Part shown: positions 5 to 41,100 of the stretch, piece after piece
Position numbering within the stretch: the first letter of the stretch is position 1
How the letters are laid out: the number at the start of each line of letters is the position of its first letter
Assembly (NCBI GenBank): GCA_963693285.1
Contig: OY848917.1
Span: 994,501 to 1,058,500, forward strand
Source: Xestospongia muta
Taxonomy: Eukaryota > Porifera > Demospongiae > Haplosclerida > Petrosiidae
Length of the DNA stretch: 64,000 bases
Direction of reading: 5' to 3'
Position numbers and translations under genes: made by a program
Notes under the pieces: model-generated
Seen by the model: only the letters and a program-made list of their open reading frames with translations
Told to the model about the DNA's origin: nothing
Databases searched by the model: none

Positions 5-3000
5 CTATTTGGTGATAGTATGATCATAGCAGCTTGTAGTTCCAGGGAAGATAATTCACATGTTGTGGAATACTTAATTGACAAAGGAGGTGACGTTAAT
101 CTTCAAAATAATGTGAGTATTAATTATTAATATATATATGTATATCCACACGCACACTCACACACACACACATTATATTTGGAAAGATTCATTGTGAAAA
201 AAGTTCAAATGTGAAAGTTTCACCATCTACAATAGATATAATCTTTGCTTTATTTTAGATGTGCCATGCCACGCTGTCTTATCAATATACTTTTTAGTGC
301 TTATCATGATACTTATACCAGGTGTATATAGTCATATCACAGGCAATGCCTATAATCACTTTGGTCTGTACATATGTATACACCATACCCACACACACAC
401 ACATCTGTGCATACACACATACTCGTACATATAAACCTATACATGCACATACATTTTTCTTTCAAAATAAAGTCACAATTCTAAATTCCAATATTAGGCT
501 TTATCTGTATATAATGTATTTGAATAGCAGATCTATCTACTGGTATAAATTTAATAGCTATCTTCTTTAATTTCCGTTGTTTAGTTTTCTTTTCCTTTAT
601 ATTAATGGTAATGTAGACAATAGACTGACTTAATGTATCTGGTTATCAGTATATTTGGCCTATCAATTGTTCTTTTTTTCTACCATATAGACAAAGGGTT
701 ATCAATAGTATTACACTACATTATACCACTGTCTATTGTTTGATACAAACAGGTTGTAGTACATTTAATATATTTATAGTATATGGTCAGAGTACTATAT
801 TGTAGACCAAACAGGAGAGTTATAGATACAGTGTAGTGTAAAGAAAAATGAAGCAAAGGTCTACAGGTTCAAAGGTTATTTTTATCATAACATACTGTAT
901 GTACAACACAGTACAATATAGATTGGACTATAATGTGTATGGGTTGGTGTTTGATATTATGGAATTTAAAAATGATGTCATAATTCCAATATTGGGCTGT
1001 ATTTAGATACAGTGCAGGTTCCTTGTCACCACTACAGGTAGTCATTGCAAATGATCAAACATTATAGTAAAAGGAATTTTTTCGTCATAGTTAACAACTG
1101 CAAATTTACCAGACTGCCCTTTCATTTAGGGGTGTGACTCTCTGGGGTTGAGACTATATCAGACTGCTATTTCATTAGGGGGTGTGGCAGTTTGGAGATA
1201 TAACTAGATGTTAGGATTTTTCTAGATAAAATGATATGATGTCATTTTATTCATTCTATGCTCCTTGTCAGCACTTTGGTATCATATATACACTTTGAAA
1301 TTCTATGATATCATATGACAATAGTAGATATACTAGTATAATAGATAGTGACAGTGTTCACATAGTTAATGGAATATGTTTATTATATGATGATTTATCT
1401 GTTATTATCAGGATGAAGATACTGCACTTCACCGGGCCTCATATAATGGACATGTTAATTCTATAAAGCTTCTACTGGAAGGAGGAGCTAATGTAAATGT
1501 AAAAGATAAGGTTAGTATTATACAAAATAATGAACATTATCTGTTACTTTACCAATCATTATAATGTGCTATACTTACCATCCTGTATGAACATGCATGT
1601 ACAATGTTCTTGAGAATATAGTGCTTTTATAATTACCATGTCTATACTGTCAGTGTAACAGTGTAACATGTTTGTGTTATTAATAGAAAATATATTTCTG
1701 TAAGTATTATTAAAATTGATCTCTTCTTCCAGTTTTTTTCTATTTTCAATTATTTATTAATTAATGTTATATGGACTATAGTCTGTGTGAGTTGAGAAGA
1801 GCCCCTATTAATATTCAGTGTGATAAACATGAAATGTAGCATGAGGAATTTTCTCACTCTATTACATGTAATTTACACTGCAGTACTTTTTAACTATATC
1901 TATTATTTTATTCCTATGATTGTTATTATGTATTTGTTCACATAATTAGAGCATAATTTTGAATTGTTGATGTGACAAATGACTGTCTGACCAAGGTGAA
2001 AATTGTTTTTTGTTAAATCCTCAAAGGTGAAAAAGAGTTCCAAAAGTATGCTATTAGAAATGTATGGAGTTTTCTAGTTCCTCTGCCTTTTCGTGCCACC
2101 AGAGTGCTAAGTTTTACGTATATATAATATAGTGCATTTCCAAACTGAATCATTTGGTATAAGTCCATTATGCATAGCTTGTAAAAAGTTATTCACATGT
2201 CTGAGTGGGTCTTCTCAATTTATACAGACTACAGACATAGTCAATGTGTCAGTAGTATTAGACTACAACTATTTTTTGTTAAAGTGGTTATACTATGATG
2301 TGTTTCATAATGTAATGATATATTTAGATAGAGTATGCTAATGTTATAAAAAGATATTTAGCAAAATATAAACACTAAACCATGCTTTTTATATCAATGA
2401 AATTACCCGCTATTTTAAAAGCATATGTAACTTTTTACATATTAACTATTACTAAGCCTCACTCATTGATATACTTACTAAAAATGTTAACTATACATTT
2501 AGTTTGGTTTGACTACAGTTACTAGTAACCTGTGAACACTTCTGTTAAGTTTTATTTTATATTGTTTGTTGACTATAATATAACAACAAGTAGTCACTAG
2601 AAAATGATAAAAGTAGTTAGTCACTTAATATATTTTATGTTCTTAGCAGAAATTAAGGTGTTGCATCCTTCATTATTTTTCTTGTGGCATCTTTTTTTAT
2701 AAGACACATCCACAAAGAGACTTCCCTGATACTTTATAAGTTGCAAGAGAAACCTTACTAAATCTAGACCCTACCTTTTAAGTTCTAAAATTAAAAGAAG
2801 CCAAGTTATTAGCATTACTGGACAAACATATTCTAGAGGCCAGCCCCTTAGCTAGTAAAAAAGGTTTTTTGGTAGTGTACACATAGTACACTTGTCAAAG
2901 GGAAGTTACACATTATGTAACATTATGTTACTGTGGTTTATAATTATTACTCTTTCCAAGAAGTATTTGGATATGACAGAGTTAAACCTGATATTTCGTT

Positions 3001-6000
3001 GTGGTATGTATATATTTGTGACTTTATTAATTGGCTTTTGGTCATTATACTACATTACTTAACGTTTTGATATCTAAAAGGTGAATGAGAAGAAATCCAT
3101 TGTTGTTGTAGTTTACCCTCTACTTACATTGATACATGACCAGGTTGATATTATCTCTAATATCTAAAGGAAATGTTGTTAGCAGTGATTAACATTTAAT
3201 GTGGTTTACTCAAGTGCCTGTTAACCAAACTATGGTTTTACCAGGAATGTTATTAGTAAAGTTGTTCTCTATCACACTCTTCCTCTCTAAGTAAACAGGT
3301 GGTACCTTAAGGCAATTAGCCTTGTACCCAGGTACTCAATGAAAGGAAGGAATACCTGGTAACTACTGGTTGCTCATGTAGTATAATTATTGTACTTTAT
3401 GTCAATAATAACATGATAATTAGAGGATTTAATTGAAATGAGAAATAAATGGAGTAGGTTTATACTGATGAAGTTTAAGCATGGCTTGAAACTGTGTCTC
3501 TTGAGAAGTCTATTACATACCTAGAGACATTGAAGATGTTGATTAGTTGTTCTGGATGTATAGCTTCAATGGACAATAGCTGCTTTTTTAAAAGGATAGA
3601 TGTGATCTTCCTGGTTGCTTTAGAGCGTAAATTAGAGCATTTGAGAAGTTACTATCAGCACTACATGTACCTATCATAGATGGTTGAAGATTACAGTAAA
3701 AGGAATTGTTACATCATAATTGACAGAGGATTACTAGAGTATACTATTTTCCTACAATTCTAAGGAAATCACACTCTTGTTCAAACAGTACTTACTAGGT
3801 GTTCCTTCTCATCATAACATACAAAGTGTATATATTAATAATGATTATAATATATCATTACTATACTAAATCTTTTAGTCCTCTTCTTTGTATAAATGTT
3901 ATTAGACCTTACTATAAAATGTCCTACTTGTATTATGAAAATGACTTTGTATTTATTCTTTTAGTATGGATGTCGACCTCTTTTATGTGCTTATTTATGT
4001 GAAGAACAATCTAAAGAAGGTACTATTGAGGGACTGATGGAAGCTTGTCCTGCAGACATTGAAGAGATATATACTGTAAGTATCAATAACTATAACAGAC
4101 AAATATTTGTACATTGTTAACAACAATTAGTCATAAAATGAAGTTGTCTTAATTATGAAGTCAATGTGATGTGTTTTGTACAAGTGAGCATTGTTTACAT
4201 CTTATAAGTGTGTTGTTTGTTTTCATTGTCCATTATTGATACATGTATCTGTCCTTGTAGCTTTAATAATAATGATTTAATTTTAAGACTTGTACATGTA
4301 GGTATGTCTTATGTATACAATAAGTTATTCAATCATTATCATGGTCATTTGAACATTATGCTGGGGGTGTGATAGATGGTATCATATGAGGTAAATGGAG
4401 GAATAGCTAGAAAGTAAATGAAAACATAATATATATTGGATAAATAAAAGGACACACCCACAACCTTCATATCACATTCACTTACACAAAGTACATCCAA
4501 CCAGATTATGTTATTAACATATTATATCCTAATCAGTAATTTCATGTAACGTTAATTAACAATTTTATTGAAGTATTAATCACACCTACATGCAAAGCTA
4601 TTCTTTAATGATGACACTTTTATACATGTATTTTCTGCACTATATGCTGAAAATTGATTGAGTTGATCTATTAGACCACACCCAATTCATAAAATATTTC
4701 ATTATAATTTTATCATAATACATTATAATTATCAATACCAGTTATACCCAAAATTATACTAACTTAATAAGTTCAATTCTATTCAATCCTATTCAATATA
4801 ATCCATTGATCTCTAGTATATGGTAGTCATGATCACAAGGTGACATAATGTAGTGTTTTATACTCCAGGTGATTTGTTTATATAATTTACTACTGACATA
4901 ACAAGTATACATGTATGTAATGTTATGAAATAGTTAGTGATACTACTAAAATAGACTGATCATGAAAAAATAGTAGCTGTTGTAATACTCAAGGAAATAG
5001 AGTATTTAGTGATACAACTAAGATTGTTTAGTTTATATTATAGACATAATATAATTAATTAATTATCATGTATTTCTCTATATTATAGGAATACCAATTA
5101 TTGACAGCTGCTGAGAACAATGATGTTGAAAATTTCAAGAAAATGTTGACAGCCGATGTTAATATCAATATTGGCAATATTGTGAGTCAAGTTATTCATA
5201 CAAATATTTGTCAGTATTATGGTATATAATGATAGCTTATTTAGTAAGCCATTACACACCTTGTTCTATGGAACTATCATAAAATCTAATACTATATATG
5301 TTTGTTTAGTGTTATGTTTAAATGTTATATACTCAATAGATATATCTTGTACCTTTGTACATGAGTTATGTAACAAGTTATGACAAGATATATTATCATA
5401 ATAATATGACATATAAATTGATATTTCAGTATTATAATACATGACATTAGTGAATTAAAGATTACTAAGTAATTTATGTATTACAACAATGTAGTAATGT
5501 TTTGTATAATTAAATATATCCATTATTACATGTAGTTATTGTATTATCACATGTTTTTATTATTTGTTTCTAGTTTGGAGAGACTGCTCTCCATTTTGCT
5601 GTACTGAACAACAGTATTGATGTCACAAAGTTACTTTTAAAGATCCCTAATATTGAAATCAATGCCAAAAATTTTGTAAGTATATCAAATTACTTCTACA
5701 TCAATACATCATACATAATCATAAATTTCATAGCTTCCTATGGAAGCTGGAGACGGACATTCCTATTCCTATTTCCAATTTCATTTGCGGACCTTATATT
5801 CTAATTAAAGATGCAGTTGATGGGTTCCAATTCTAATCTACTACCAAAATCAGGAACCCAAGCCAACTAGAAACATCTCGCCAATACTCAATTCTAAGAA
5901 ATGGCTCACGGTACTTGTTTTATTAAGTAACAAGAAAATCCTAGAATGGTGCATGTGCCAAAAATGGAATTAGGAATAAGAAATTGGAACTCATCTACTG

Positions 6001-9000
6001 GGTCGTTAATTGGAATATTTTAATACAAAAACGTGCGTGGAAATAGGAATACGTATATCTGTCTTTAGCTTCCATAAAGAATAGTATTAAATTATGTCAA
6101 CTTTACTTTAAATGTGATGAGAATGTCCCACTTTGTCTACTAAGTTAGAATATATACAATTTTACCTAGCATATGATATCACTGTAACTGTACAACCTGT
6201 AATTATGATATATATCGTTAAGCTTTTACATGTACATGATCAGACTTTACTCCACCCACATTGTTACCCTGGTTTTCAATAAATCATTGACTAATTCTTT
6301 TTCTTTATTTAAAATTAAGAATGTTACATTGTCTGTTGTCTCTGTTAGTATATTGACAATGTACTTTAACTAATAATGTCACAATATGTACTTTTTATAT
6401 AAAATAATGATCACTATATGAAATGGTTTGCTTTCTCATTTGTCATTTATTTGACTACAACTGTCAGGGTCATGTATCTCCACAACATTAATGGAGATAA
6501 CAATACCATTACTAACTATGGAAGTACATACTTCTTACACATATATGTACAATATGAGATCATAACCATATCAACAATATTATGATAGCATTGATTAATA
6601 TTGTTGTTACCAATAAGTCTAGTAAACAGAGAGTTTTCCATAATATATTTATTAACTAATGGAGACAAAGTTTGTAGAGTACATAGTTGAGACAATGAAT
6701 CACTAGTTACAATCATTGTTGAATGGAGAAGCTATTTATTTATTCTGTATGTCTATGTATGTCACACTTGGAATGCTTCTCAGAATCTGTAACCACAAAA
6801 AAATGTATCATAGATGAGACTACATGTAATAATAGGTTTGTTCAGTTTTCTAGCTACTAAGAAAGTAAAAGGATCAGATAAGCAAGGATATGTCCTGATT
6901 ATTGAAAGAAGCTGTATATACTAATAGTTAAGAAACAGCTACTCACTAACTAGTGGACTTACATGTCTTATAATTAAATTACTACTAGTGACCCTGAGTT
7001 ATAAGTATAGACTCCATAGCTTATTACATTGCTTTTGAATGTTACTACTTTAGAGTTAAGTTAGACTATACTACTGTCATGACAATTAAATTATCATCAA
7101 TATTGCATATTTTAGTTATTTTACAACAGGGTATAGTTATTGCATTAAATATATCAACTAGTTGTATTTTTGTGTACATATTTGGTGAACACATGACTGA
7201 CTTAGTTCCCTTTTATTTCTTTAACTTAATCCTCACTTTTTAATAGGTTTATAGACATAGATATATAGTAACTTGCTATATGACTCTAGTCAGTATTTCA
7301 GACTATTTGATGATGATTCTTCTCACTTTATACCACAAACATAAAGTTGATGATAATATTATGTTTATGTTATATCAACAATAGCTATGTATATGGAATA
7401 AGTGTGTCTTGTACTTGTAACTTTATATGTTAAAGGTGTTATGTGTTCATACTACTAGTGTGTAGATATGACATACTAAAATGAAGTAGCTCGCAAACTT
7501 TAGAAATTTCTATCTAGAACGTTCTATACGATGTAGCACTAAATTTTGGAAGGACTATATTGTCTTACATAAGCATTTTGTGAAATACATTTTGTGGATT
7601 AGTTAACATAATTTTGATAAGCCACACCCAGATCCTTACATGTTACTTCACATGTACTTAGCTAGTCCAGAAAAGCTGATGAATGTATTGCAACTTCAAA
7701 TTATAATATCTTACTGTTGTTGTCACACCCTACTCTACTTGTCTATCTTGCTTTCTCCTTTAATGTAATCATTCCTGTCTTCTAGTTTATACTATCTATA
7801 GTTTACATGTTACTTCATTGTCAGTATTATATTACAATATAGTAGATGTTTAGACAAAACAGGTATTTATCCAAAGCAGGCTTTTATTTATTATATAACA
7901 TTAATTGGTTAGACATAATTCTATTGTAACAATGACTGGTTACTAAAAATGTAGTGATATAACTATGACATACTAAAATGTCATTAATGTCTTTAGTAGT
8001 AGTGACAGATTTTTTATATAGAACATTCTATACCCTATATCACTGACTTTTTGAGGGACAGTTTTTCAGGAATTGTCTACATAAGTTTTTTGAAGAATAA
8101 AGTTTTACAGAATCAATGGGTTAATATAATTATGGTATGAAACACCCAGATTCTTGCATATTACTTCACATGTATTTTGCTAGTCCAAAAAAGCTTGAGA
8201 ATTTCTGGCAACCTCTAAGCATAATATCTTACTGTGTCTGCTACACCATGCTCTACTGTCCTTTTGTCTATTCCTGGTTTCTGCTTTTACACAAATATCA
8301 AGTACATGTATGTTCCTCTGCTTGCTCATACTATCTGTAGTTTGTGGTCTTCAGTGTTGGCATTACATCTTTAGATAGTGATCTCCAATGATCATATAGC
8401 TACATCTTTGTATCTGTTTGTTGAAAATATTAATTCCATGTAGTAACTAAGTCTGCAATGAGATGGTTAAAACATTGCACTGTTCTAAACCTAAATGCTT
8501 TCACCTCAAAGCACAATATCAACATAATAGAAATGGTCTGTATTGTACATATATGTAGTTATGATAGGTTGTCTGTTATGATAACTAAAGGTCAAACACA
8601 AACATTATGGTTTGTGATATTACATATTTAGTTATGTCATAGTCCAATCTTAATACTGCTTTTCACATAATGAGTGTTTTATGTCAGTTTATCTTAGAGA
8701 GTGAAATATTTTCAAGTTTTTAATTTTATATCATGTACTAATAAACTATGTTATTATTAAATATACATAATGTTTTAATACAGGATAATGTCATTATACA
8801 TTTTATTTGTTTTATCCATGTAGATGGGTGAGACTCCAGTTCATTTGGCTTCCAACTATAACTATGTAGATATACTCAAACTACTAGTGCAACACAAAGC
8901 ACCTTTAGATGTGAAAAACAATGTAAGTATTTTAGTGATATTATATTTTTCTTAGATCAGTCCATTGAATAATCATAAATATAACAATTGTCTGTAAGAT

Positions 9001-12000
9001 GATTTTAATATATAAAAAGTCTATGAAAACATTAGTACTATATTCTTCACTAAAGCATACTTATTAATTATGTCATATATTACTATGTAATTATTGTTTA
9101 CAATGTCTCCTCCCATAATGTAAACATTACATAATAATACAAACAGCTTTACAAAAGATGTTAGTATATTACAATATGTATATGTAGTGGTTTCTATTGT
9201 CCACACTGACTAGAAGTATAGTACTACTTATATTGTACATGTCATTGATAACAATAGACGGTGATCATGTAGTTATTTAAACAAGGTACTTTTAATTCAT
9301 GTACAGAAATAGTAGGTTTTTTAGTTAATATCTTGTTGATGATTGCTGTACAATAACAATGTAAATCATGTATTTAATACACAGTATATAAAGAAGACAT
9401 ATTGTAAAGTATACTTTGTTCATGTTGAGACTGAACACTAACTCTGTGTTATAACTGTGGGTAGGAATGAGTTAGAGAGAAATGATTTGTACCATTGAAA
9501 ACACCTCATAAGTTCACAAATGTTATGAAAAGCTAGAGCACATCTGTCTAGGAAAGTTTAAAACTATAAATCCCATAAAGTGAATGGCATTCTTCACATT
9601 CCACCATGACGATGTCACACATATTTTGTATATTATTAATGAACATTTATACAAGCATTCTCCAGCTTCCCTAGAAAATTTTAGAAATTGTTGAAAATGC
9701 CTTTAATACTAAAAATAAGATAGATTAACTTCAAACAAGATAGAACAACTTCAAAGAACCACTAGCTTCAATAGACTTACCAAAAACGTTCCACCTATAA
9801 TACCACTCCCTAGATCATTGATGTTGTCATAATTGAAATTCCACTAAACCATAGTCATTCTCAACATGAACAGAGTATACTGTATATTGGGAAACTTTCA
9901 TGTTGGGATATTTTTGCAAATTGGTGAAATTGTGGTTTTTTTGTGAATATAAATTTTGCAAATTTGTACCATGTTTCCACCCACTTGCAATTATTATTGT
10001 TTGACCACACCCTAAACATGTTTTCTCACACCTGGACTCGACAATGGAAGATACGTTCGAAACGGAATCCTGTATGAAAGGATACCATGTTTATAAAGAG
10101 GTATAGACATCCAATGGAGAAGAAATCATTTTTTTACTAAGTATTGCCATGTGGTCGGTCACCCTTAATCAGATTTTCTGCTTAACCATTTGCTACGCCC
10201 ATAATTGTAAGAAATTGGCAAAGGATATTTTTACAAAGGAGTTAAATTTGTGAAATTCGCAAAAATTTTGCAACATGAATGTTTCCCAATATACAGTAGT
10301 AGGCAATGATGTCATTACAACTACACTCTTATAATGAGATTTGTTTGTTATTATCACCTTTTATATTGATAATTACATTACTTACCTTAGCTTCTCTTTG
10401 TAGTATCAGTTTGAGCATATGACTCAATTTATCTGTCAAGTTGTGAAATATACTCAGATACGATGAAACTCTTTTTGTTTAAATTGTACTTAACTCTAAG
10501 CCTGTTGATAGTGACACATTAAACTAATAGGTATACTCTGTCTGACTTGAGTTGAACTACCTAGACATGTAAATAACTTTGCTTTTTTACATGCTATCCA
10601 CATGGAACTTGTACCAATCAATTCAGCTTGCAAATGTGCATTTTATATATAAAATTTGGCTCTCTAGTGCAACGAGAAAGTAGCAAACTATAAACTCCAT
10701 ACATTTTCAATGGAATATCTTCCTTATACTTCAAATTCCAGACCTTCGAATAACACTTTTCACCTTGAGAAGTCAGCCGTGTGTCGCGTGGTAATTCATA
10801 ATTACAGTTCTAATTATATGAACAGATGTTATATTATAACAATTATTACTATTAAAATAATAATCAGATATTGACTTTTGCGATTTAAGGCAGCTATAAA
10901 CCCACTGAAAAGAACCTTTTAACTAAGAAGAAAGACTGAGAATGTCTAGAACTATTCGTCATCAGAACTATCAGATTGATCAGAATCATCAGACTCATCT
11001 GAGTTTGCAACCTCAGTTTCTTTCCCCTTTGTATCTTTACAAACGGGTGGCAAAAACGTGGTCTATTCGTATGACATTCACGTGAAGAAGTAATGAATAA
11101 TATTAAAATGTACTTCAGTGTTAAGTGTATAAAGTAGGTGAGAAAATACCTCACCTTACATTCCATGCATAACAAACTTTATTTTTAATGAAGGGCTCAA
11201 CTCAACTCAGAGAGAATGTAGTTTGTATTTTTGATATCTATACTTCAAAACTAATAACATACTCTATACTTACTTGACATTCTTGTTACCATGTAATACC
11301 AACTTGTGATATATTTATTCCTTTTATATCATTTGTCTTGTCTGTCATTTATTAGACATGTGACAATTATCAGACTAAATTTGACAACACTTGATATTAT
11401 AGTACTTCTCTTATATTGTGTCCATTTAATTTAGTGACACTACTGAGATAATACTCAATTATTATATTTACCAAATTATATACTAATCACCTGTTTTTGT
11501 CATGACTATGATTTAACAAGATATCTTCTTTTATTTCAGTATGGTAATACACCTCTTCATGATGCCTGCAGTAGAGGATTTACTGAAGCAATAGCATTGT
11601 TGCTATCCACCGGTATTGTTAATCCAAATGAAACTAACAATTATAACGAAACTCCCATTGAACTAATTAAGCCTGATGATGAAAATCGCTTCGAAATTTT
11701 AAAGCTTTTTCTTCCATTTGAACAATGCCGTGAAAGCTATCCTATTGATTCCTATGCCAAAGTTTTTTTCTGTGGAAATACAACAGCTGGAAAGAGTTCT
11801 TTAGCTGCAGTCTTAATTCAACGAGCCAAGAAGGGTAGTAACCACAAGTTTAATCTATTAGAGTGTGTCACTGATGTTGTACCATTAACAGCTGGTATAG
11901 CTACACATACACTGCAATCACATGAGATTGGTAATGTCGTTCTTTATGATTTAGCAGGTCACCGAGAATACTATAGTAGCCATACTGCAGTACTTGAGCA

Positions 12001-14501
12001 CTTGATGTTAAGATCACCAGCTGTATTTTGTGTTTTATCTAAGCTTACTGATAATGATAATGATATAGCAAGTGATCTCTATTATTGGCTCAATTTTATA
12101 GAGAATATTAATTCTAGAGTGACAAAGCCTTCTCACATTATTACTGTTGGAAGCCATGTTGATTTGAAAGATAGTAGTCTAGAGTTTAAGGTCATTCTTG
12201 ATGACATTGTAAGAGAAATTGTTCGTCGTCAGAAATTTAGTGGTTTTGCAGCTGTAGAATGTCATCGTCCAGGTGGTAAAGGTGTTAAAGAGCTTGTATC
12301 TCTCCTAGCTGAAAGTTGTAAAGCTGTACTGGACACATCTGACAGCATTAGTATCTATTGTCATGTTTTGTATGCATTTTTACTCAAGCTTGATAAAATA
12401 GCCATTAGCTTACAACAGCTTTGTGCTTTGCTTAAAGAGAAAAATGATCCATCTCTTCCATCAAATGAATCAGCTTTGTTAGAATTTTTGACCATTCTTT
12501 CCGACAAAGGTCTTATTTTATTTTTAAAGAATGAAGACAGTAAAAGCTGGATCATTATCAAGAAAGAGGCTCTTCTTGAGGAAGTCAATGGTACCCTATT
12601 TGCTCCATCTGCTATTACACGTGTTTATCGACAGATTGCCAGTAATACTGGAGTGGTTTCTACATCTGCTCTGAAAAATCTTTTTAAAGATAAATATGAT
12701 ATTAATATGTTGACATCATTTCTAATTATTCTTGAGTTTTGCCATATCCTAGATCCTGATACACTTGAAGAGATTTCAACTAATCTCTCACCTTCATCTC
12801 CTGCAGAAACAGAAAAATTGCTCTACATTCCTGCTCTTGTACAGGCAGAGCGTCCTTCTGACGTCACTTTGGATAAAGGAATTGGGTGGTGTCTTTGGTG
12901 CAGCAATCCTCATCAATTTTTCTCTACTCGATTCCTTTTTCGTTTGCTCCTTCGTCTTGCCTTTAAATATTGCCTCCCAAAATGTAATGTTGGGCAAATG
13001 AAAGGTGGATCTGCATTAGCTAGACGTTGTACTTTGTGGAAAAATGGTATTTATTGGATTAGTAGAGGTGGAGTAAAGGTGATTGTTCAAATGAGTGAAA
13101 ATAATCGTTGTATAACTGTACTTACTTCCAATGGTGAAGCATCAATGGCTTGCCAACTTCAAAGCAAAATTATCAATGATATTTTTAACCTTCAGAAGGA
13201 CACCTGTCCTTCTTATGACATCACAGAATGTTTGATATCTCCATCTGATATTGGTAGATCACTGACCGATAGAATTAGTGATATACCAGTGTTTGTGATG
13301 AGAGATGTCACTCATGCTATGCTAACTAATACAAAGTATGTCACCGATGACAGTGGTACAACAACAGTAGAGGTTGCTAGTTTGTTTTTTGAGAATGAGC
13401 CTTTTAGCAAAGTTTGCCCAGAATTTATTAAAGTTTTATTCGATAGTGTTAAGTCTTCAGAGCTTCTCCCATCAATTTATCTTGAGTATTTATGCTCGCG
13501 TTGCTCTGCAATAATGAAGTTATGTGCTTTGAAGGATTATACCTTCTTGTCTGTTAGAGAACATCTCAATAGTCACAGTATGTTTGCTGGACGTGATCCT
13601 TTGGTAAGTAAATATTTTAATATTTTTGTACTGTCAGTTATTGTCTATTTGTAGACTGTTGTCTTTCCTAAACTCACTGATGATGAAATACAAATATACT
13701 CAAAGGAATTCATTGATATGTTGAAATCCTCTCCAGGTATGTCTAATACTTTATCTATTATAACATAACACTGGTCAACTTAGTTTGATGTAGTAATGTT
13801 TGTATTTAGTAGTTTTGTTGTTTGTACAATGTAAATGAATTTTGAAACTATTTAATTATTAATTATATTAGGCAATAAACACACTTAGTATATTTGTCAA
13901 GTAATTTGACATTTTAATATTGTTGAATCAACACTTACTCTCTTTGAAAATAACAAACAAGCCACAGTTTGCTTTTAATCTTCTACTAAAATATATGCCC
14001 ACTTCATTTATTTTTGAAAACTTTAATATTAAATGTTGAAAGCAGCTGTTTTTTGTTATGATATCTGAAAGTATATGACACTGTAGTTATTTATGTTCTT
14101 TTACCATAGTAACAGGAGAGGACAGCTGTATTAAGGAATTTAGTTATTTTCCTAAATTATGTAAGTCATAGAGTTTGTTGTATTGTTACTATCAACATTG
14201 TTTAGCTGAAAAGCCTGAAAGAGTTAACTTGTTGAGTAAACTCACAACTATTGATGCATCATGGCACAGTATTGGCAATGGTCTTGGCCTATCTTACAAT
14301 GATCTTCAAGGTATAGATGAATCCACTAAATCTAATCAAAGAAGACTTGATCATGTCCTTCAAATGTGGCTAAACATGGATGGTGAATCTACTCCTGTAA
14401 CTTGGAAAACAATTATAGATGTCGTCAAGGGACCTCTTGTTCAAAACAAAGCTCTCGCTATTAAGATATATCAAGACTTGAAAGAAGATAGCTCTAAATA
14501 A
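5..14501 (+). CDS. Gene A: ankyrin-ROC-COR-death domain protein (5' partial)
   Basis: Spliced gene, 5' end outside the window. Exons with GT..AG borders: 5-112, 1412-1510, 3965-4075, 5089-5181, 5574-5675, 8824-8922, 11540-13603, 13655-13736, 14206-14501 (TAA stop), with an optional 51-nt exon 14110-14160. The first seven are all phase 0. They join into an open frame of 1017 codons without the optional exon. Order: about six ankyrin-type repeats, one more repeat plus ROC GTPase and COR-like region in the long exon, linker, death domain. The layout resembles the non-kinase part of DAPK-type ROCO proteins; no kinase is seen, but the N-terminus is missing. A signalling or stress/death switch is inferred from the families. 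The gene is intact and highly similar to gene C. Confidence 0.85.
5739..6076. mobile_element. MITE in gene A intron (copy 1 only)
   Basis: About 340 bp bounded by inverted ends. The left end starts TATGGAAGCTGGAGAC and the reverse complement of the right end starts TATGGAAGCTAAAGAC; similarity continues through a TATTCCTATTTCCA motif on both arms. The matching intron of copy 2 lacks it, so it either inserted after the duplication or was lost there. It has no coding capacity. The superfamily cannot be assigned from the ends alone. Confidence 0.65.
7480..8340. repeat. Diverged tandem repeat in an intron, period about 0.5 kb
   Basis: Two diverged direct units, roughly 7480-7800 and 7965-8340. 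They share GACATACTAAAATG, a TTCTATAC motif, CCACACCCAGAT or ACACCCAGATTC, TTACTTCACATGTA, a GCTAGTCC motif and ATATCTTACTGT. The same pair is present in copy 2 (about 49330-49690 and 49840-50210), so it predates the segmental duplication. The open frames 8137-8340 and 50007-50210 fall in the second unit and are not convincing genes. Confidence 0.6.
9878..10298. mobile_element. MITE with TACTGTATATTGGG ends (copy 1)
   Basis: About 420 bp with long inverted ends starting TACTGTATATTGGGAAAC; the right arm is the reverse complement, ending in TTTCCCAATATACAGTA. Similarity continues inward through TTCATGTTG and a TTTTTGC / AATTTG.GAAATT region. The TA at each edge fits a Tc1/mariner-like target. 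The same element sits at 51736-52151 in copy 2, so it predates the duplication. Confidence 0.72.
10952..11057 (-). pseudogene. Short acidic Ser/Asp-rich coding remnant in an intron
   Basis: Read on the minus strand, one frame gives a short peptide ending in a Ser/Asp/Glu-rich tail (SDESDDSDQSDSSDDE) and then TAG at 10952-10954. Upstream the frame reads PPVCKDTKGKETEV. The tail is kept with only two residue changes at 52830-52900 in copy 2, where a small indel breaks the upstream frame. It looks like the 3' end of an old captured gene or exon. No ATG, splice site or promoter could be tied to it. Confidence 0.3.
11540..13603 (+). CDS. Gene A exon: last ankyrin repeat, ROC GTPase and COR-like region
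   Basis: A single exon of 688 codons, acceptor TTTCAG, donor GTAAGT. It begins with an ankyrin repeat (YGNTPLHDACSRG). The GTPase follows: P-loop GNTTAGKSS at 11774-11800, a G2-like VVPLTAG, G3 DLAGH with Glu two residues later as in ROC domains, and VGSHVDLK where NKxD would stand. The next segment has the winged-helix look of a COR domain (GVVSTSALKNLF, then LEFCHIL), followed by a larger alpha/beta region rich in Cys and Trp (GWCLWC, RRCTLW). GTP binding and dimerisation through COR are known for ROCO proteins; this protein's partner is unknown. Confidence 0.87.
14110..14160 (+). CDS. Possible 51-nt cassette exon of gene A
   Basis: Lies between an AG acceptor at 14108-14109 and a good GTAAGT donor at 14161. 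It is 51 nt long with phase 1 on both sides, so it can be included or skipped without breaking the frame joining 13655-13736 to 14206-14501. It would add 17 residues (VTGEDSCIKEFSYFPKL and a split codon). The polypyrimidine tract is modest. No equivalent is seen in gene C, where this intron has been replaced. Confidence 0.4.
14206..14501 (+). CDS. Gene A terminal exon: death domain
   Basis: Acceptor CATTGTTTAG, phase 1 entry, stop TAA at 14499. About 98 residues with a death-fold signature: W-x2-IG-x-GLGLSYNDLQGI, then LDHVLQMWLNMDGESTPVTWKTIIDVV and a final amphipathic helix. The core Trp of helix 1 is present (ASWHSIG). Death domains mediate homotypic assembly in apoptosis and NF-kB type signalling; the partner is not known here. 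Confidence 0.8.
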
Positions 14502-18200: not shown

Positions 18201-19651
18201 GATTAGCTGTGGACCTGGTCAGTCTAAGGAGCCAGAAAAACATGTCCCTGATGCATTGGATATGATGGATCAAGGTGGCAATACACCTCAAGGTAATGTA
18301 CATGTTTAGTGTATACACACGGTATGCATTTTGTGTAAGTGTATGTGCAGCAATTATTTGGTAACATTATTGACTCAGTAGTAGCTATATTATAGCTCTG
18401 ATGAGGTATATGTCATAGTTATCTCTTTTTAGTACATATTAATGTATTAAGTTGTTTTCATTATTAATTATATGTCCTTCTCTCTTTACAGAACGTGCTG
18501 AGACTGTTCTCAAACAACTTGTTGTTGCTGTACAATCCAGTAAGACTAAAGAGAAAAAAGAGAATGTTGAAGAAGAGGAAAAGAAAGATGAAGAGGAAGT
18601 AGTCCTTGAAGATGATGTAATCACACCTACTAATGAGATTCCTGCCACTCTTCAAGAGCCTCCAATAGAAGATTTAACTAAACAATTGGATCAAACAAAA
18701 CTTACGGTTGCAAGAAAAATCTCAGGCTCTCGTCTAAAACGGCAAACCAAGTCAATATCAGGTAAACTATATTCTCAATTTAAATAAATTAACTCATTTT
18801 AGATGGTGATGTAGATCTACCTGAGGAAGTATTCAAACCAGCCACACCCCCTCGTTCATCAAGGGGTAGTTTATCTGAAAGTGGAGATGAAGTAGGAGAG
18901 CTACCCTATAATCAGAAGAAGCATCCATTTTATCAACACAGCGATGCTGACTCAGCTATTGGCATGGTAAGCACTAGATAGACACTATACATTTATAAAT
19001 GTAGTAAATTTAATCTGTTTCATACACTCCACTATAAAATTAGTTTTCTTAAAGTAATATATCATCTAATTTTATAGTCTTTTGAAGAAGAGTGCTCTTC
19101 CATGATCTTCTCTGAGGTTCAACGTCGTAGGAGTTCCTCTCTCCTACCAATAGACTATGTTGGTCAAAGTCGTGATGCTATTAGTATTAAACTACCTCAA
19201 GATGCTGAAATAGAAGGTATTAAACCACACTATATGATATGATTATTTAGCATACACTTATACATCCACCAATATCTTAGTTGATTGACATCAAGTGATA
19301 TTGTCTTATTGTTATAGTTGCTAGCAGTCTTGAGTGGGAATCTAATATTGTGGTCATTGAAGATTATCCACCAAATCAAGAATTCAAAATTTTCCACAAA
19401 GGAGATCGTATCATTCAGGTACATACTTTTAACCACAATAGCTGCCACGCCTACTAATTGTTATAATATCACTTGTAGTCTTATTTAGTTGGATAATTTT
19501 TACTTGTATGTACTTTTGTAGGTTGGGGAACGTCTTGTTCGTAACATGTCAGTACATGAGTTTTCTGATTTGTTTCATACTGAAGCAGCCAATGGAATGA
19601 CTCTTAAGATCATTCCAAATATGGAGAAACCAACTCAACCATCTATTGAAG

Positions 19652-25270: not shown

Positions 25271-25583
25271 TTAATCTATGTATTCACTCATACTTTAAAT
25301 GAAGTATGACATGACCCAATTCAGTTCTCATATTGTAGAAAATTAACAAACTAAAATAAACCAACATATTACAAACTGTTTATTATTTATTAATGAATAT
25401 TAATATGTTGATAAATACATTGATAGATGTACTGTAGCATATGACATATGTTGTTATATTACTTGTACTTTGTCACTTAGTTAACCACACCCATTTAACC
25501 ACTAAACATGTAAACAGATACTTATGAAGTACTTTATATAAGAGAGTACATTTCCTGTTATGATAATATACTCACTATATTGT

Positions 25584-32123: not shown

Positions 32124-35100
32124 GTAAGTATGTTATATTTATAATGTTTATAGGAGAGCACTTGTAGTATCTATTGAGTGGACTATTAGTTACTTGTCAT
32201 GTCATCAATAAATTTACATGTTACCTTGTTATCTGTCAAAATATTGGCTCCTCGTCTTACGTACTTTAGACAGCCTATTGTCTTTTTAGTCTTATGCTCA
32301 GACACCCACTTGTTTTAAATGCTATAAAGTGTATCTGGTAATGATTCCTTATCATTTAAACAAAATGTTTTAGCTAAAGAACTAGAACAATGATGTCATC
32401 AACTACATAAATTATTAGTAAAACATAGAATAAAAGACATGACATAAATAGTAACAATATAGTTCTTTTTATTGAAACTATCTCAGTGTAAAATAGTAAT
32501 TACTTATTTCATTATTTGGAGCATATCTCATTAACTGTCATCATATACTCTTAAATGATATATCATGATATGACAATGTAAGGAAATTTAACTTAACTCA
32601 CCTGATGTTCTTTCTCACTTTAAGCCAGTAGGTATATAGGTACAAGCCTACCCTGGTCATTTTCTTTTACTGTTTTATGTGAGATCACTAACATTATCTA
32701 TTGAATCAACTGTAAATTGTTTATCATGTCAACAATAAATGTAGATTTTTCCTCAATGACAGTCACCATAATGGCCCCTCCCTTTGCATATACTTAACAG
32801 TTTATAATATCCTATGTTGTAACTTGTTGAAGTTGTTATATAACATTTTATATTGTATTATATTAAAGTATTAGTGGACTGTTTGTTACTGAACAAGATA
32901 TTTAGAGAAGAGGTTAACTGTTTTGAAATATAAAGGAATTACAAACCTTTATATATTTGTTTTTAATAATAGCTTCTTTAATGTCTCAATAAAGGTCAAC
33001 CATTAGTTATTACTATATAATACTGGCCTTACTTTCTATTATACTATTAATGTTAGTTCTATGATAATATTAATAATAATATTCATAGTTTGTTTTATCA
33101 ATATATGAATAGTGTCATTTTAATAACCTCTTATTAACATTGTTTTATATCATATCCTACTGTGATATAGTTTATAATAAAATAAGACTGATTGATTTCA
33201 TTATAATTTAGTTTAGTATAAGACTTTAATAAATCATTAAATATATGTTATTAAGTTTTATTATTCTCTATTAACTAATGACATCAAATGATGTAATAAC
33301 TGAACACATCAAACTATTGTGTATATAACTAGTGTAGTCAGTATAGACTTACTTTCATAGTTGATATTGTATCTAATGAGAAATTTACTTTTGATGTAGT
33401 GTGTATTTACAATATTAAGTTATATAATAAGTTATTACTAGTGTATACTTCACAGGATAACTCTTTGCGGAATGCTGCTTCTAACGGTAATCTTGATGAA
33501 ATTAAAAGAAGAATACAAGGTGGTACAAATGTCAATGCCAGATATGAGGTTTGTAAATATAATTATAATAATATTAGTGTAGTATACAAATAGTGCATAA
33601 ACAATATTATAGACAATAGTCAGTATGTCATTTATATTAACCACATAATTCAATGTGACAATAACTTTATATGTAGTTATTATAAAACATTTAATAGTTA
33701 ATACACTTATTTAATAATTATTATTACAATATGTTACACAACATGTTATCACAAAGTGTGTAAATCAATTGTGAGCCTCTTTCTATAGATTATTACCTTA
33801 TAACTTTAATATTGTACATTATATTTTAATTGTTCTCTGGAAGATTTTATAAAACTTTTAATGATCGGAATTTATCATCACTATATAACTGATCTAATGT
33901 ACCTTATAATAATGTAATGACAAATACTGGGATTTGTACCCAACACTATAAATCATTTATAACAAGTAGTGATCCTCAACATTTCCTAAGTATGTGTAAT
34001 TAGTCACTTGTTCATTGCCAGTATTTATAAATACTCCATTGTTTCTGTAGTGAATTATCTGTTATTTCTTTTCTCATAGTCTTTCATAGTATTATCCTCC
34101 CTATAATGTAACATTGAACTGTGTACATGTATATATTACATGAGAACAGACATTTGTATAGAACTAACACTTATTACATGACTGTTGTAATAACATCATA
34201 CTATAATACTATTAGTTAGAGTGTACATGTTATCTGTGTATCCATAGCAACAGATAATATATGAGGTATCATGTTTATATAGTCCATTATATATTATATA
34301 CTTTGTATAAGTGGTGTTATGTTACTATTGTGTAATTGAGTGTTACTATAGTTAGTACTGATGTAGTAATGTACCCAGTAGTCTATGTATATGTATTTAA
34401 TTATTGACATATTATATTGTGTCTTTTTATTAGGTTAATGGTGAAAGTATGATCATAGCAGCTTGTCAGTCCTTTAAAGATAATTTACATGTTGTTGAAT
34501 ACTTAATTGACAAAGGAGGTGACGTTAATGTTCAAAATGATGTGAGTATTAATTATTAATAATTTTATGATATTTATTATAACATTCAATTTGTGTAATG
34601 ACATTTGTTATAACATTTTAGACATGTAGGTTTATATCAGTTAAACTGAAAACATCCATAATTATATAGTATTTGATGATATACTTGTCATAGTATTATG
34701 TGACAAAAAGTCTAGCTATGATCTGTTTGTTTCTGATAGTCCAGTAGAATGTTACGAACATAACCACACCTCTAATAATTTATTTAACCTCACTGTGCAT
34801 GGGTGCAAAGTGAGGGTACTGTAGTCTGTCAGTGTGTGTGTATGTGTGTGTGTGTGTGTGTAAAAGTAAAAAACTTAACATGGAGATTTTTTAGTATGGC
34901 GTAGAGAATCTTAGAGGAATACAGAAGGCCGTTGGTCGAAGCAATCGTTAGAAAAGTTCTGAAAAGTGTTTTGTGGGCTTGGAGCGAAGTAACGCATTCA
35001 TGAAACGTCTCAAAGCACTGAAACTGCTACTAATAGATAATATATTGATTTATATTTGTACTACTGGACGTTTCTAAAGAACGCTTCATTTTCAAGTTTT

Positions 35101-38100
35101 GTATATGAAATATTGAAACATTTTAAAGCATCATGTAAAGGCTTAGAGAAACATTCATCACGAATCTAGCATTTAATCCTGCTTGGCAATTGAATGATAC
35201 TATTACTTACTCAGTTACAGCTTCACAGACATGTCAATCAGAGTGCAAAGTACCCAGTAAACGACAAAGCTTTTTTCCCTTTGATTGAAGAGAAATGCTG
35301 AGTCATTAAACAACAGTTTGTAATGTGCATCACATGGTCCCATCAATAATTTGACCACACCTTGTCCAATCTTAAATGTACATGTTACATGCACTCTGCA
35401 GTATAGAGTTACACTGGGCACCGCAGCGAGGTTAAATAATTATATTAAATGATACAGATTATCATTTTATATACATGTAGTAAGTGTTAATGAACCATAT
35501 AATAGCAAACCAAGGCTATCTAGTGTGAGTAGTAATGTTTGTAGTTATTTGTCCTTAACAAGTTGTAATTTTAATATTAATTAATATTAGGTATTTTATT
35601 AATACATTCATTACTAATAGTCATACATAAAGATTGGTATATACTGCTATAGATATTGTTAACTTGATGTTCCATCTTGTCCATTACAAACCTCATGTTT
35701 TCAAAGATAGGTGGTACTAACTAGTAAAGAATTATTACAAAATAAATAATATTAAATTTACACTGTATGTTCCACGTTCTTTATAATAGCTCTATCATTT
35801 TTGTTCTATTCTACCATATATATAAAGGGTTAATTTTAAGTAATAATTGCTGATATTTCATGTAAAACACACTGCAGTAATACACCTTACCATATATGGA
35901 AGAAATTGAGTTCCTTTTTAGTGCCTAGTACACACACATGTCATTCTGTCCTATGAATCCACTTTTTAGTGCTTGTAATGATACATGTATCAAATGGTAA
36001 TTCTATACATATTATAGTGATATCACAGATAATTCCTATAATCACTTTGGTCTACACATGAGCAGTCCACCCACAAGCACACACACGTATATACATGTAC
36101 CCTATATTTGAAAAGTTACATTGTGAAAAATTTCAAATGTTGGATAATGTACAAAAATAAACACACTAAGTTTGTTACACATTGAAATAGGAATATTATG
36201 GTATGTAATTGTCTTTGAAATTTTTTCAACATTATGATACAATGTTGTAGATAATGCTTATAATCACTTTGATCTTCATATATGTGCACCCATCCACACA
36301 CACACATGTATCATATATTTAGAAAGATTTATTGTGAAAAAAGTTCAAATGTGAAGTTTCACCATCTACAACAGATATAATCTTTTCTTTATTTCAGATA
36401 TGCCATGCCAGACTGTTTTATGAATATACTTTGCTTATCATGATACATATACCAGGTGGTAGTTCTATGTATATAGTCATATCACAGGCAATCCCTATAA
36501 TCAGTTTGGTCTGTACATATGTATACACCACACCCACACACACACACCTGCGCATACACACATACTCTAACATATAAGCCTATATATGCACATGCATTTT
36601 TCTTTCAAAATAAAGTCACAATTCTAAATTCCAATATTAGGCTTTATCTGTATATAATGTAGGTTCCTTGTCAGCACTACAGGTAACCATTGTAAATGAT
36701 CAAACATTACAGTAAAAGGAATTTTTTGTCATAGTTAACAAATGCAAATACACCAGACTGCTCTTTCATTTAAGGGTGTGACTCTCTGGGGTTGAGACTA
36801 TATCAGACTGCCATTTCACTAGAGGGTGTGTCAGTTTGGAGATATAACCAGATGTTAGGATTTTTCTAGATAAAATGATATGATATCATTTTATTCATTC
36901 TATGCTCCTTGTCAGCACTTTGGTATCATATATACACTTTGAAATTCTATGATATCATATGACAATAGTAGATATACTAGTATAATAGATAGTGACAGTG
37001 TTCACATAGTTAATGGAATATGTTTATTATATGATGATTTATCTGTTATTATCAGGATGAAGATACTGCACTTCACTTGGCCTCATATAATGGACGTATT
37101 AATTTTATAAAGCTTCTATTGAAATCAGGAGATGTTAATGTAAAAAATAAGGTTAGTATTTTCAAAATAATTAAAAGTTTCTGTTACTTTACTAATCATT
37201 ATAATGTGCTATACTTACCATCCTGTATGAACATGTATGTACAATGTTCTTGAGAATATAATGCTTTTATAATTACCATGTCTATACTGTCAGTGTAACA
37301 GTGTAACATGTTTGTGTTATTAATAGAAAATATATTTCTGTAAGTGTTATTAAAATTGATCTCTTCATTTCTATTTTTGTCTATTTTCAATTATTTATTT
37401 ATTAAAGTTATATGGACTATAGTCTGTCGGAGTTGAGAAGAGCCCCTATTAATATTCAGTGTGATAAACATGAAATGTAGCATTAGGAATTTTCTCACTC
37501 TATTACATGTAATTTACACTGCAGTACTTTTTAACTATATCTATTATTTTATTAATATGATTGTCATTATGTATTTATTCACATAATTAGAGTATAATTT
37601 TGAATTGTTGATGTGACAATTGACTGTCTGACCAAGGTGAAAATTGTTTTTTGTTAAATCCTCAAAGGCGGAAAAGAGTTCCAAAAGTATGCTATTAGAA
37701 ATGTATGGAGTTTTCTAGTTCCTCTGCCTTTTCGTGCCACCAGAGTGCTAAGTTTTGCGTATATATATATAGCACATTTCCAAACTGAATCATTAGGTAC
37801 AAGTCCATTATGCATAGCTTGTAAAAAGTTATTCACATGTCTGAGTGGGTCTTCTCAATTTATACAGACTATAGACATAGTCAATGTGTCAGTATATTAG
37901 ACTACAACTATCTTTTGTTGAAGTGGTTATACTATGATGTGTTTCACAATGTAATGATATATTTAGATAGAGTACACTAATGTTATAAATGATATTTAAC
38001 AAAAATAAATACTAAACCATGCTTTTTATATCAATGAAATTACCCACTATTTTAAAAGAATATGTAACTCTTTATATATTAACTATTACTAAGCCTCACT

Positions 38101-41100
38101 CATTGATATACTTACTAGAAATGTTAACTATACATTTAGTTTAGTTTGACTACAGTTACTGGTAACCTGTGAACACTTCTGTTAAGTTTTATTTTATATT
38201 GTTTGTTGACTATAATATAACAACAAGTAGTCACTAGAAAATGATAAAAGTAGTTAGTCACTTAATATACTTTATTTCCTTAGCAGAAATTAAGGTGTTG
38301 CATCCTCCATTATTTTTCTTGTGACATCTCTTTTTATAAGACATGTCCACAAAGAGACCCATCCTGATACCTTATAAATTGCAAGAGAATGCTACTAAAT
38401 CTAGACCCTACTTTTAAGTTCTAAAATTAAAAGAAGCCAACTTATTAGCATTACTGGACAAACATATTCTAGAGGCCAGCCCCTTAGCTAGTAAAGAAGG
38501 TTTGGTAGTGTACACATAGTACACTTGTCAAAGGGAAGTTACACATTATGTAACATTATATTGCTGTGGTTTATAATGATTACGCTTTCCAAGAAACATT
38601 AAGATATGACAGAGTTAAACCTGAGCAGATATTTCTTTGAAGTATGTGTATATTTGTAACTTTATTTATTGGCTTTGGGTCATTATACTACATTACCTAA
38701 CATTTTGATATCTAAAAGGTGAATGAGAAGAAATCCATTGTTGTTGTAGTTTACCCTCTACTTACATTGATACATGACCAGGTTGATATTATCTCTAATA
38801 TCTAAAGAAAATGTTGTTAGCAGTGATTAACATTTAATATGGTTACTCAAGTACCTGTTAACCAAACTATGGTTTTACCAGGAATGTTATTAGTAAAGTT
38901 GTTCTCTATCACACTCTTCCTCTCTAAGTAAACAGGTGGTACCTTAAGGCAATTAGCCTTGTACCCAGATACTCAATGAAAGGAAGGAATACCTGGTAAC
39001 TACTGGTTGCTCATGTAGTATAATTATTGTACTTTATATCAATAATAACTATGATAATTAGAGGATTTAATTGAAATGAGAAATAAATGGACTAGGTTTA
39101 TACTGATGAAGTTTAAGCATGGCTTGAAGCAGTTGAGTTTGTTGATTTTGCAGGGATTTTATACATACAAAAAGATAGACTTTTTCAGTATAATTGGGAT
39201 CCAAAAAGAATGCACTTTACAAAATACTGCTCTACTAGATGTCTCAATTCCTAGAGATGATTGTCTCTCTTTATATATCTATATCAAGTACAAACTTCAA
39301 ATTGTGTCTAGTAATACTGTGTGATATGTAACATATTCCATTATATATTTAACTATAGTTCATTAAAGACTAATTATAATAAATTATGATATAGTAGTGA
39401 TCAATGAATACAAAGTGTGTATATAAATAATGATTATAATATATCATTACTATATTAAAACTTTTATTCCTCTTCTTTGTATAATTATTATTAGACCTTA
39501 CTATAAAATGTCCTACTTGTATTATGAAAATGACTTTGTATTTATTCTTTTAGTATGGATGTCGACCTCTTTTGTGTGCTTATTTATGTGAATATCAATC
39601 CAAAGAAGGTACTATTGAGGCACTGATGGATGGTTGTCCTGCAGACATTGAAGAGATATATAGTGTAAGTATCAATAACTATAACTGAGAAATATTTGTA
39701 CTTTGTTAACAAAAATTAGTCATAAAATGAAGTTGTCTTAATTATGAAGTCAATGTGATGTGTTTTGTACAAGTGAGCATTGTTTACATCTTATAAGTGT
39801 GTTGTTTGTTTTCATTGTCCATTATTGATACATGTATCTGTCCTATATATTAGATAAATAAAAGACACACCCACAACCTTCATATCACATTCACTTACAC
39901 AAAGTACATCCAACCAGATTATGTTATTAACATATTATATCCAAATCAGTGATTTCATGTAACGTTAATTAACAATTTTATTGAAGTATTAATCACACCT
40001 ACATGCAAAGCTATTCTTTAATGATGACACTTTTATACATGTAGTTTTAGCACCATATGCTAAAACTTGATTGAGTTGATCCATTAGACCACACCTAATT
40101 CATTAAATATTTCATTATCATAATACATTATAATTATCAATACCAGTTATACCCAAAATTATACTAACTTAATAAGTTCAATTCTATTCAATCCTATTCA
40201 ATATAATCCATTGATCTCTAGTATATGGTAGTCATGATCACAAGGTGACATAATGTAGTGTTTTATACTCCAGGTGATTTGTTTATATAATTTACTGCTG
40301 ACATAACAAGTATACATGTATGTAATGTTATGAAATAGTTAGTGATACAACTAGGATAGACTGATCATGAAAAAATAGTAGCTGTTGTAATACTCAAGGA
40401 AATATAGTATTTAGTGATACAACTAAGGTTGTTTAGTTTATATTATAGACATAATATAATTAATTAATTATTATGTATTTCTCTATATTATTATAGGAAT
40501 ACCAATTATTGACAGCTGCTAAGAACAATGATGTTGAAAATTTAAAGGAAATGTTGGCAGCTGATGTTAATATCAATATTGGCGATATTGTGAGTCAAGT
40601 TATTCATACAAATATTTGTCAGTATTATGGTATATAATGATAGCTTTTCAACATTTTAACTAGTAAATTGTGAACCAATTGATTAGATGAGCTTGATCAA
40701 TATATTATTATGACATAATATAACAATAGTTATTATAATAATAATAATAGTCAATGAAATATTATTAAGTTATAATATTGAAAAGCCCAAACTCTTCCTA
40801 ATATATACTTTATTTTATAGAAGTTATAATATAGAAAAGAATAGTATTAAATTATTTCAACTTTACTTTAAATGTGATATAAATGTCCCACTTTGTCTAC
40901 TAAGTTAGAATATATACAATTTCCCCAGCATATGATATCACTGTAACTTATGAACATGTGAACTATCTCCATCTTCTTCATTGTAAAGTTGCCTCTCTTC
41001 TTTACTTAATACATTACATACCTTACTCTATCTCAATATTCCCTAGCTAGCTCATATGTTGGTACAAAACAAAAGCACATGTTGTGTTAAAATGACTTAA

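Follow-up and report, generated by a model that had tools for sequence, protein, structure and literature searches.

A tandem ANK-Roc-COR array of the sponge Xestospongia muta with probable diversifying selection on a few predicted ligand-facing ankyrin codons

Introduction

How can an exon differ more between two copies of a gene than the introns that flank it? The question is raised by a stretch of 64,000 nucleotides from Xestospongia muta (hereafter the window; C1:994501-1058500; the genome measures 158 Mb in 28 contigs), in which two gene copies, A and B, carry ankyrin repeats ahead of a Roc-COR core. A sequence-only reading of the window had proposed diversifying selection, or exon exchange with other paralogues, on the ligand-binding repeats of a protein with a fixed GTPase/COR core, as in a recognition system with a variable sensor and a constant effector.

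Results

The array and its gene anatomy

A 601-base DNA query around the exon at 8824 found 26 places in the genome, 16 of which are distinct copies on one contig, spanning C1 from 744 kb to 1166 kb with 86-100% identity to the query; the remaining places lie on C9, at 9.4-9.6 Mb of C1, or are fragments. Copies A and B of the window are members of this tandem ANK-Roc-COR array, from whose fetched parts 15 ROCO exons were obtained. Genome-wide, at least 150 COR (PF16095) matches were detected, 148 of them over the cut-off, a figure that comes from 150 scored of 261 candidates and is a lower bound of matches rather than a gene count.

Most of the ankyrin repeats occupy an exon each; these exons measure 93-111 bp, are bordered by AG and GT and are in phase 0. 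The last repeat is an exception, being encoded within the ROCO exon. The exons of the two copies (named below by their first position in copy A) are the following.

5..112, + strand: copy A ankyrin exon, phase 0 (Pfam Ank 23.6 bits; AG/GT borders; copy B counterpart 34434-34541)
1412..1510, + strand: copy A ankyrin exon (Pfam Ank 38.9 bits; copy B counterpart 37056-37151; 7 array copies aligned)
5089..5181, + strand: copy A conserved ankyrin-like exon (8 copies compared; copy B counterpart 40497-40589), so called by eye only because Pfam finds no ankyrin repeat in 5089-5226 at E<=1
5574..5675, + strand: copy A ankyrin exon (10 array copies; two tandem copy B relatives, 41534-41635 and 42354-42455)
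8824..8922, + strand: copy A hypervariable ankyrin exon, the central finding (Pfam scan, 16-copy comparison, site test)
11540..13603, + strand: copy A terminal large exon with the last ankyrin repeat, a part-repeat, Roc and COR (ORF, Roc Pfam match, Foldseek)
14208..14498, + strand: copy A exon for a death domain, located after the ROCO exon (Pfam Death 24.7 bits over 14172-14498, cut-off 22.6)
33456..33548, + strand: copy B probable first ankyrin-like exon (home-made profile, weak at 6.1 bits; borders by eye; no Pfam match at E<=1)
34434..34541, + strand: copy B ankyrin exon (home-made profile, borders, alignment to copy A exon 5)
37056..37151, + strand: copy B ankyrin exon, with a 3-bp deletion relative to copy A
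40497..40589, + strand: copy B conserved ankyrin-like exon (borders, array alignment)
41534..41635, + strand: copy B ankyrin exon, the upstream member of a tandemly duplicated pair (array alignment)
42354..42455, + strand: copy B ankyrin exon, the downstream member of that pair (array alignment)
50694..50792, + strand: copy B hypervariable ankyrin exon, counterpart of 8824-8922
53398..55461, + strand: copy B terminal large exon with the last ankyrin repeat, Roc and COR (frame open to 55512)
58990..59280, + strand: copy B death-domain-like exon (shares 84.5% identity with its copy A counterpart over 97 residues; its own Pfam scan gives no family at E<=0.1)

The two units of the copy B tandem duplication, 40840-41666 and 41663-42486, are 92.8% identical. 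In the terminal exon of copy A the frame is open to 13654 and a GTAAGT donor stands directly after 13603; this donor follows codon 688 of the large ROCO exon in both window copies, and in each of the 15 array copies the ROCO frame runs without a stop for 689-704 codons. Also, a Ty3/Gypsy-like element (43842-47671, minus strand; gag, protease, reverse transcriptase, RNase H and integrase by Pfam) lies inside a long copy B intron, at the break in the A/B alignment between 43464 and 48941.

Divergence between copies A and B

A comparison of exon 8824-8922 with 50694-50792 shows 16 differences in 99 bp, 15 of them in nine residue-changing codons and one synonymous (AAC/AAT), with 2 differences in the 84 bp before the exon and 3 in the 115 bp after it. 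For exon 5-112 against 34434-34541, 16 of 108 positions differ, 15 of these in residue-changing codons, and for exon 1412-1510 against 37056-37151 there are 11 differences in 96 bp plus a 3-bp indel, with 2 differences in the 207 bp before the exon. All these counts agree with those given in the sequence-only reading. Its statement that introns lie far below exons holds for the flanks counted, but not as a general rule, since 8 of 149 positions differ after exon 1412. Moreover, the introns after exon 5 align badly (54 differences in 132 positions, 33 gap columns), and the low divergence of the flanks is local rather than a rule of the whole A/B alignment.

The non-exonic part of the A/B alignment has a mean of 3.92 differences per 99 columns, and 8 of its 13149 overlapping 99-column segments, located near 6700 and 14200, reach 16 differences. 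Around 6700 the change is of the ordinary, scattered kind, and no ankyrin exon is present there by the rule used. Because these eight non-exonic segments match the 16 differences of the exon, the single A/B pair is suggestive only, and it is the comparison of 16 copies that places the pattern of exon 8824 far beyond chance.

Variation among 16 copies of exon 8824

In the 16 copies, the variation is concentrated in codon 1 (9 codons, 8 residues), codons 3, 8 and 33 (6 codons and 6 residues each) and codon 12 (7 codons, 6 residues), followed by codons 11 and 14 with 5 codons and 4 residues each; 15 of the 33 codons are residue-invariant, with a pi of 0.006. For the five most variable codons, pi is 0.65, 0.47 and 0.35 at codon positions 1, 2 and 3, the corresponding values for the other codons of the exon being 0.06, 0.04 and 0.06. 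The downstream flank (300 bp) has a pi of 0.021 and the upstream flank (90 bp) one of 0.022, or 0.056 if copy 919909 is included. Over 120 pairs, pN is 0.134 and pS 0.079, with pN above pS in 81% of the pairs, not in all of them. Excluding the five variable codons, pN is 0.052 and pS 0.065, and this framework pS is above the approximately 2% of the flanks.

Targeted hypermutation of the ligand-facing codons would likewise limit the change to a few codons, and between A and B two or three bases per codon often differ. However, third positions vary least in the variable codons, although they are raised too, which makes targeted mutation very unlikely; the excess at positions 1 and 2 fits the retention of amino-acid change. 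Also, all four bases are present among the variants, rather than an adenine-only pattern, and neither a template nor a dedicated enzyme is seen in the window, whose sole reverse-transcriptase frame identified by Pfam is that of the Ty3/Gypsy-like element.

As for the state of individual copies, the exon 8824 copy at C1:979025 (L030) has a GC splice donor and is perhaps decaying, and the exon 5 copy at C1:908927 has an in-frame stop. The latter was left out of the exon 5 comparison, and copy 919909 of the correlation tests given below.

Other ankyrin exons and the site-model test

Over all pairs, pN and pS are 0.147 and 0.098 for exon 5 (7 copies), 0.158 and 0.108 for exon 1412 (7 copies), 0.046 and 0.027 for exon 5089 (8 copies), 0.150 and 0.162 for the 5574 type (10 copies), and 0.085 and 0.176 for the last repeat (15 copies). 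A dN/dS at or below 1 in the ankyrin exons had been named as the result that would contradict selection. Taken as whole exons, two of the six ankyrin-type exons, the 5574 type and the last repeat, are of this kind, with pN above pS in the other four; for those two, a few codons account for the signal, which only the site test brings out.

Positions with at least four residues are 1, 2, 13 and 15 in exon 5, 11, 12 and 14 in exon 1412, and 1, 3, 11, 33 and 34 in the 5574 type, and none was found among the 8 copies of exon 5089. In the last repeat, positions 1, 3, 8, 11 and 12 show 4-7 residues each in 15 copies. The variable repeat positions of exon 8824 overlap those of the last repeat and of the 5574 type, and from ankyrin numbering they would be placed on the binding face of the repeat.

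The site test was carried out with home-made M1a/M2a code on FastTree trees, not with PAML, and printed divide-by-zero and overflow warnings; it covered the Roc part and, among the ankyrin-type exons, 8824, the 5574 type and the last repeat. For exon 8824, the improvement of M2a over M1a is 2dlnL 61.8 (p 4e-14) with an omega of 12.3, and the posterior is >0.99 at codons 1, 3, 8, 12 and 33, no other codon being >0.9. Replacing the tree by a star tree or by either of two random trees leaves these five codons unchanged, with 2dlnL of 164, 132 and 153, respectively. For the 5574 type, 2dlnL is 25.4 and omega 13.8 (codons 3, 11 and 34), and for the last ankyrin repeat, 16.8 and 2.1 (codons 1, 3, 8, 11, 12 and 20). 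In the Roc part, 2dlnL is 30.9 and omega 2.4, with 7 of 160 codons called, 4 of them within the first 13 codons after the repeat. Since the test also calls these Roc-part sites and codon 20 of the last repeat, false sites driven by recombination are possible. The 16-copy variation, the other repeats, the M2a sites and the alternative trees together support the proposal of diversifying selection on predicted ligand-facing ankyrin positions.

Two other explanations bear on this pattern. If constraint were relaxed, or the copies were pseudogenes, the exons would drift freely beside functional introns, for which the stop in copy 908927, the GC donor in copy 979025 and the unusual likeness of the exon-proximal introns could be cited. 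This is most improbable, given that scaffold codons hardly change, that the changes are concentrated and not scattered in a neutral-looking manner across the 33 codons, that none of the 15 ROCO frames is interrupted, and that free drift would not pick the same repeat positions in several exons. Just as improbable is an assembly chimaera or a collapse of haplotypes: tandem arrays are hard to assemble, but the pattern is codon-specific across 16 copies and several exons. Moreover, the ROCO frames P0004 (694/694) and P0010 (682/682) repeat without mismatch on far shorter contigs elsewhere, which speaks against a wholesale assembly artefact, although this recurrence concerns ROCO frames and not ankyrin exons.

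The Roc-COR core and the death-domain exons

The Pfam match to Roc (E 1.4e-5, 25.7 bits) is just under the cut-off of 27, and no Pfam COR-A match at E<=0.001 was found in frames P0001 and P0002. An AlphaFold model of the ROCO frame (pLDDT 71.9, pTM 0.74) is matched by Foldseek to LRRK2 (8fo9, E 1.4e-16), to the C. tepidum Roco protein (3dpu, E 3.4e-15) and also to the RocCOR tandem 6hlu. Judged by this predicted fold, the protein is a member of the Roco family, with a Roc GTPase and a COR directly after it. The core is Roc-COR, no NACHT or NB-ARC match being present in the frames scanned by Pfam, and no kinase domain is seen in these frames either.

The view of a fixed GTPase/COR core is borne out only as constraint on Roc, which has within-type pN of 0.010-0.026 and pS of 0.036-0.106 in three segments of 11690-12139. 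From 12140 onward, COR falls into two types (6 copies of the first and 9 of the second among the 15 ROCO exons) that differ from each other by a pS of 0.28-0.64 and a pN of 0.07-0.37. For 12 of the 15 ROCO exons a death-like exon is present in the stretch fetched after them; eight of these death-like exons belong to one type (84-100% identical), four to another (34-38%). None was found in the downstream sequence compared for ROCO exons 812472 and 1107138, and the third miss, 950639, is barely covered downstream. The six copies of the first COR type all carry the first death type; among the six of the second COR type with a death match, two carry the first death type and four the second. Because COR has two diverged types, as has the death-domain exon nearby, the core is not fixed.

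By eye, no phase-matched splice junction leading from the ROCO exon to the death exon was found; joining of the two by splicing is putative. Copy B also contains a second, different death-domain frame at 56196-56507 (Pfam Death 25.3 bits).

Thus, in the comparison with a variable sensor and a constant effector, the sensor part stands, and a small set of exchangeable effector ends takes the place of the constant effector. If this reading is right, the effector halves being dimorphic, sensor and effector would evolve as separate modules.

Exchange between copies and intron likeness

The distance between copies at the variable codons of exon 8824 is not related to that of the flanks (r 0.07 upstream, -0.16 downstream), nor are the two flanks related to each other (r -0.07), and none of 21 codon pairs within the exon correlates at p<0.05. 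Likewise, Roc distance is unrelated to COR type (r 0.02). This lack of correlation, and the fact that Roc halves are mixed under COR ends of two clear types, make recombination likelier, although a star-like history could remove correlation as well. Exon-level change, which the sequence-only reading had also considered, is directly visible: one gene has a tandem second copy of exon 8824 (919909 beside 918834), and paired 5574-type exons are present in 4 copies examined. The copies look mosaic, and recombination therefore probably acts alongside selection.

These same observations are what exchange with older paralogues would produce, namely old variable codons shuffled by conversion over introns and scaffold that were recently homogenised, with selection only keeping the variety; several codons are, moreover, shared by copies that are not close otherwise. 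Against it, the invariant codons of exon 8824 bear almost no linked old variation, and the uncorrelated distances are equally given by a star-like history. In addition, the three distant exons that were fetched besides the one on C9 resemble the array in their residues at the variable positions, yet no donor was evident. Exchange with older paralogues as the main cause is thus a possible explanation, to be held tentatively.

The intron next to the exons is very similar in 15 copies, with a mean pairwise difference of about 0.00-0.03 at 8724-8823, 8974-9123 and 11274-11523, the mid-intron stretches of the same number of copies reaching 0.05-0.13. This likeness may come from recent conversion or from functional constraint.

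In the distant C1 cluster (9.4-9.5 Mb), three exons differ at codons 1, 3, 8 and 12, and also at 17 and 27. The exon is above its flank in only one of the three pairs (L036/L037; 4/99 in the exon, 4/500 in the flanks); in the other two pairs, the exon differs at 5/99 and 9/99 and the flanks at about 10%. A ROCO cluster of 3 copies on C6, considered as a further comparison, tests nothing, its frame having no ankyrin repeat and its copies being nearly identical.

Discussion

A model for the array

Selection on a few binding codons over a background homogenised by exchange is the explanation that accounts for the facts with least strain. With a probability of roughly three in four, the locus belongs to a tandem ANK-Roc-COR array with a probable death-domain end, in which few ligand-facing codons are under diversifying selection, scaffold and introns are alike, and recombination re-sorts exons and effector ends. 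According to this model, the ligand-facing codons, at about 1, 3, 8, 11-12 and 33 of repeats mostly held one per phase-0 exon, would be driven apart, and the repeat scaffold and exon-proximal introns would stay alike between copies. Conversion, unequal crossing-over and exon duplication would spread and re-assort exons and effector ends, recombination then being the probable homogeniser of the copies. In the protein, the ankyrin stack is predicted to bind varied ligands, Roc-COR would act as the switch and the death domain would signal.

Comparison with known systems

A close likeness is with the LRR-ROCO genes of brown algae (PMC11378527, also citing Zambounis 2012), proposed immune receptors in which each exon encodes a single LRR, exons are shuffled and PAML places positively selected sites on the concave face. 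Both share repeat exons of constant phase, few variable repeat positions and a Roc-COR effector. However, the repeats before Roc in the array are ankyrin by Pfam and not LRR, and its exons are of about 99 bp, in phase 0 and in tandem, with a death-domain exon nearby, whereas the algal LRR exons are of 72 bp and phase 2, in mostly dispersed genes numbering 9-47 per species, compared with the at least 150 COR matches of this genome.

For fungal NLR proteins with highly conserved ANK, TPR or WD repeats, five positively selected positions are described in the ankyrin repeats, all but one of them on the concave face (PMC4986451). Conserved scaffold, selected positions, concerted evolution and change in repeat number are common to those ankyrin repeats and the array. 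In contrast, the fungal core is NACHT/NB-ARC and the repeats lie within one gene, whereas here the core is Roc-COR and the repeats are separate exons across paralogues. For a sponge, lineage-specific expansions of death-domain proteins with ankyrin ends are described, on TRADD-N and not on Roco proteins (PMC8195603). Among the entries listed from the open-access literature, none reports ANK-ROCO exons that are diversified in an animal.

By analogy, the array may function like the brown-algal LRR-ROCO and fungal NLR ankyrin systems, as a Roco protein by fold in which ankyrin replaces LRR. If the death exon belongs to the same protein, the domains would follow the order ANK-Roc-COR-Death of DAPK1; in contrast to DAPK1, no kinase is seen in the frames scanned, and the array is large and diversified rather than a single gene. 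The variable positions of the array are presumably those randomised in DARPins or adjoining ones, except for position 8. DARPin libraries also combine a fixed ankyrin scaffold with varied surface positions, which lie on the concave surface (PMC8229355, PMC8683736), although these libraries are man-made and natural selection operates in the array.

Selection at surface positions on a conserved scaffold, the mark of a diversifying repeat receptor, is present in the array, with the surface location predicted from ankyrin numbering. This is the pattern that a recognition-receptor family with variable residues on the predicted ankyrin binding face would show, and an immune or self/non-self role may be involved. 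If true, an animal has arrived with ankyrin repeats at the solution that brown algae reached with LRRs, a variable sensor with one repeat per exon on a Roc-COR switch. The array would then be a concrete and testable candidate for recognition specificity, which names the codons to examine in populations. A more far-reaching idea, which we consider doubtful, is that of an animal with an anticipatory-style intracellular ANK-Roc-COR-Death repertoire, in which single-repeat exons would be cassettes whose binding codons outpace their own introns, effector ends would be swapped and individuals would differ strongly, and which could serve self/non-self recognition.

Other features of the window

Another duplicated stretch that resembles a gene, its open frames some 60-120 residues long, lies at 17678-18978 and 62470-63781; the pieces scanned give no Pfam family beyond a weak low-complexity match, and the A/B block that contains the stretch differs by 2.9%. 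Finally, a minisatellite array with a 44-bp unit and about 65 copies is located at 22506-25277, and a Copia-type gag fragment (Pfam Retrotran_gag_2, 38.8 bits) at 57168-57371.
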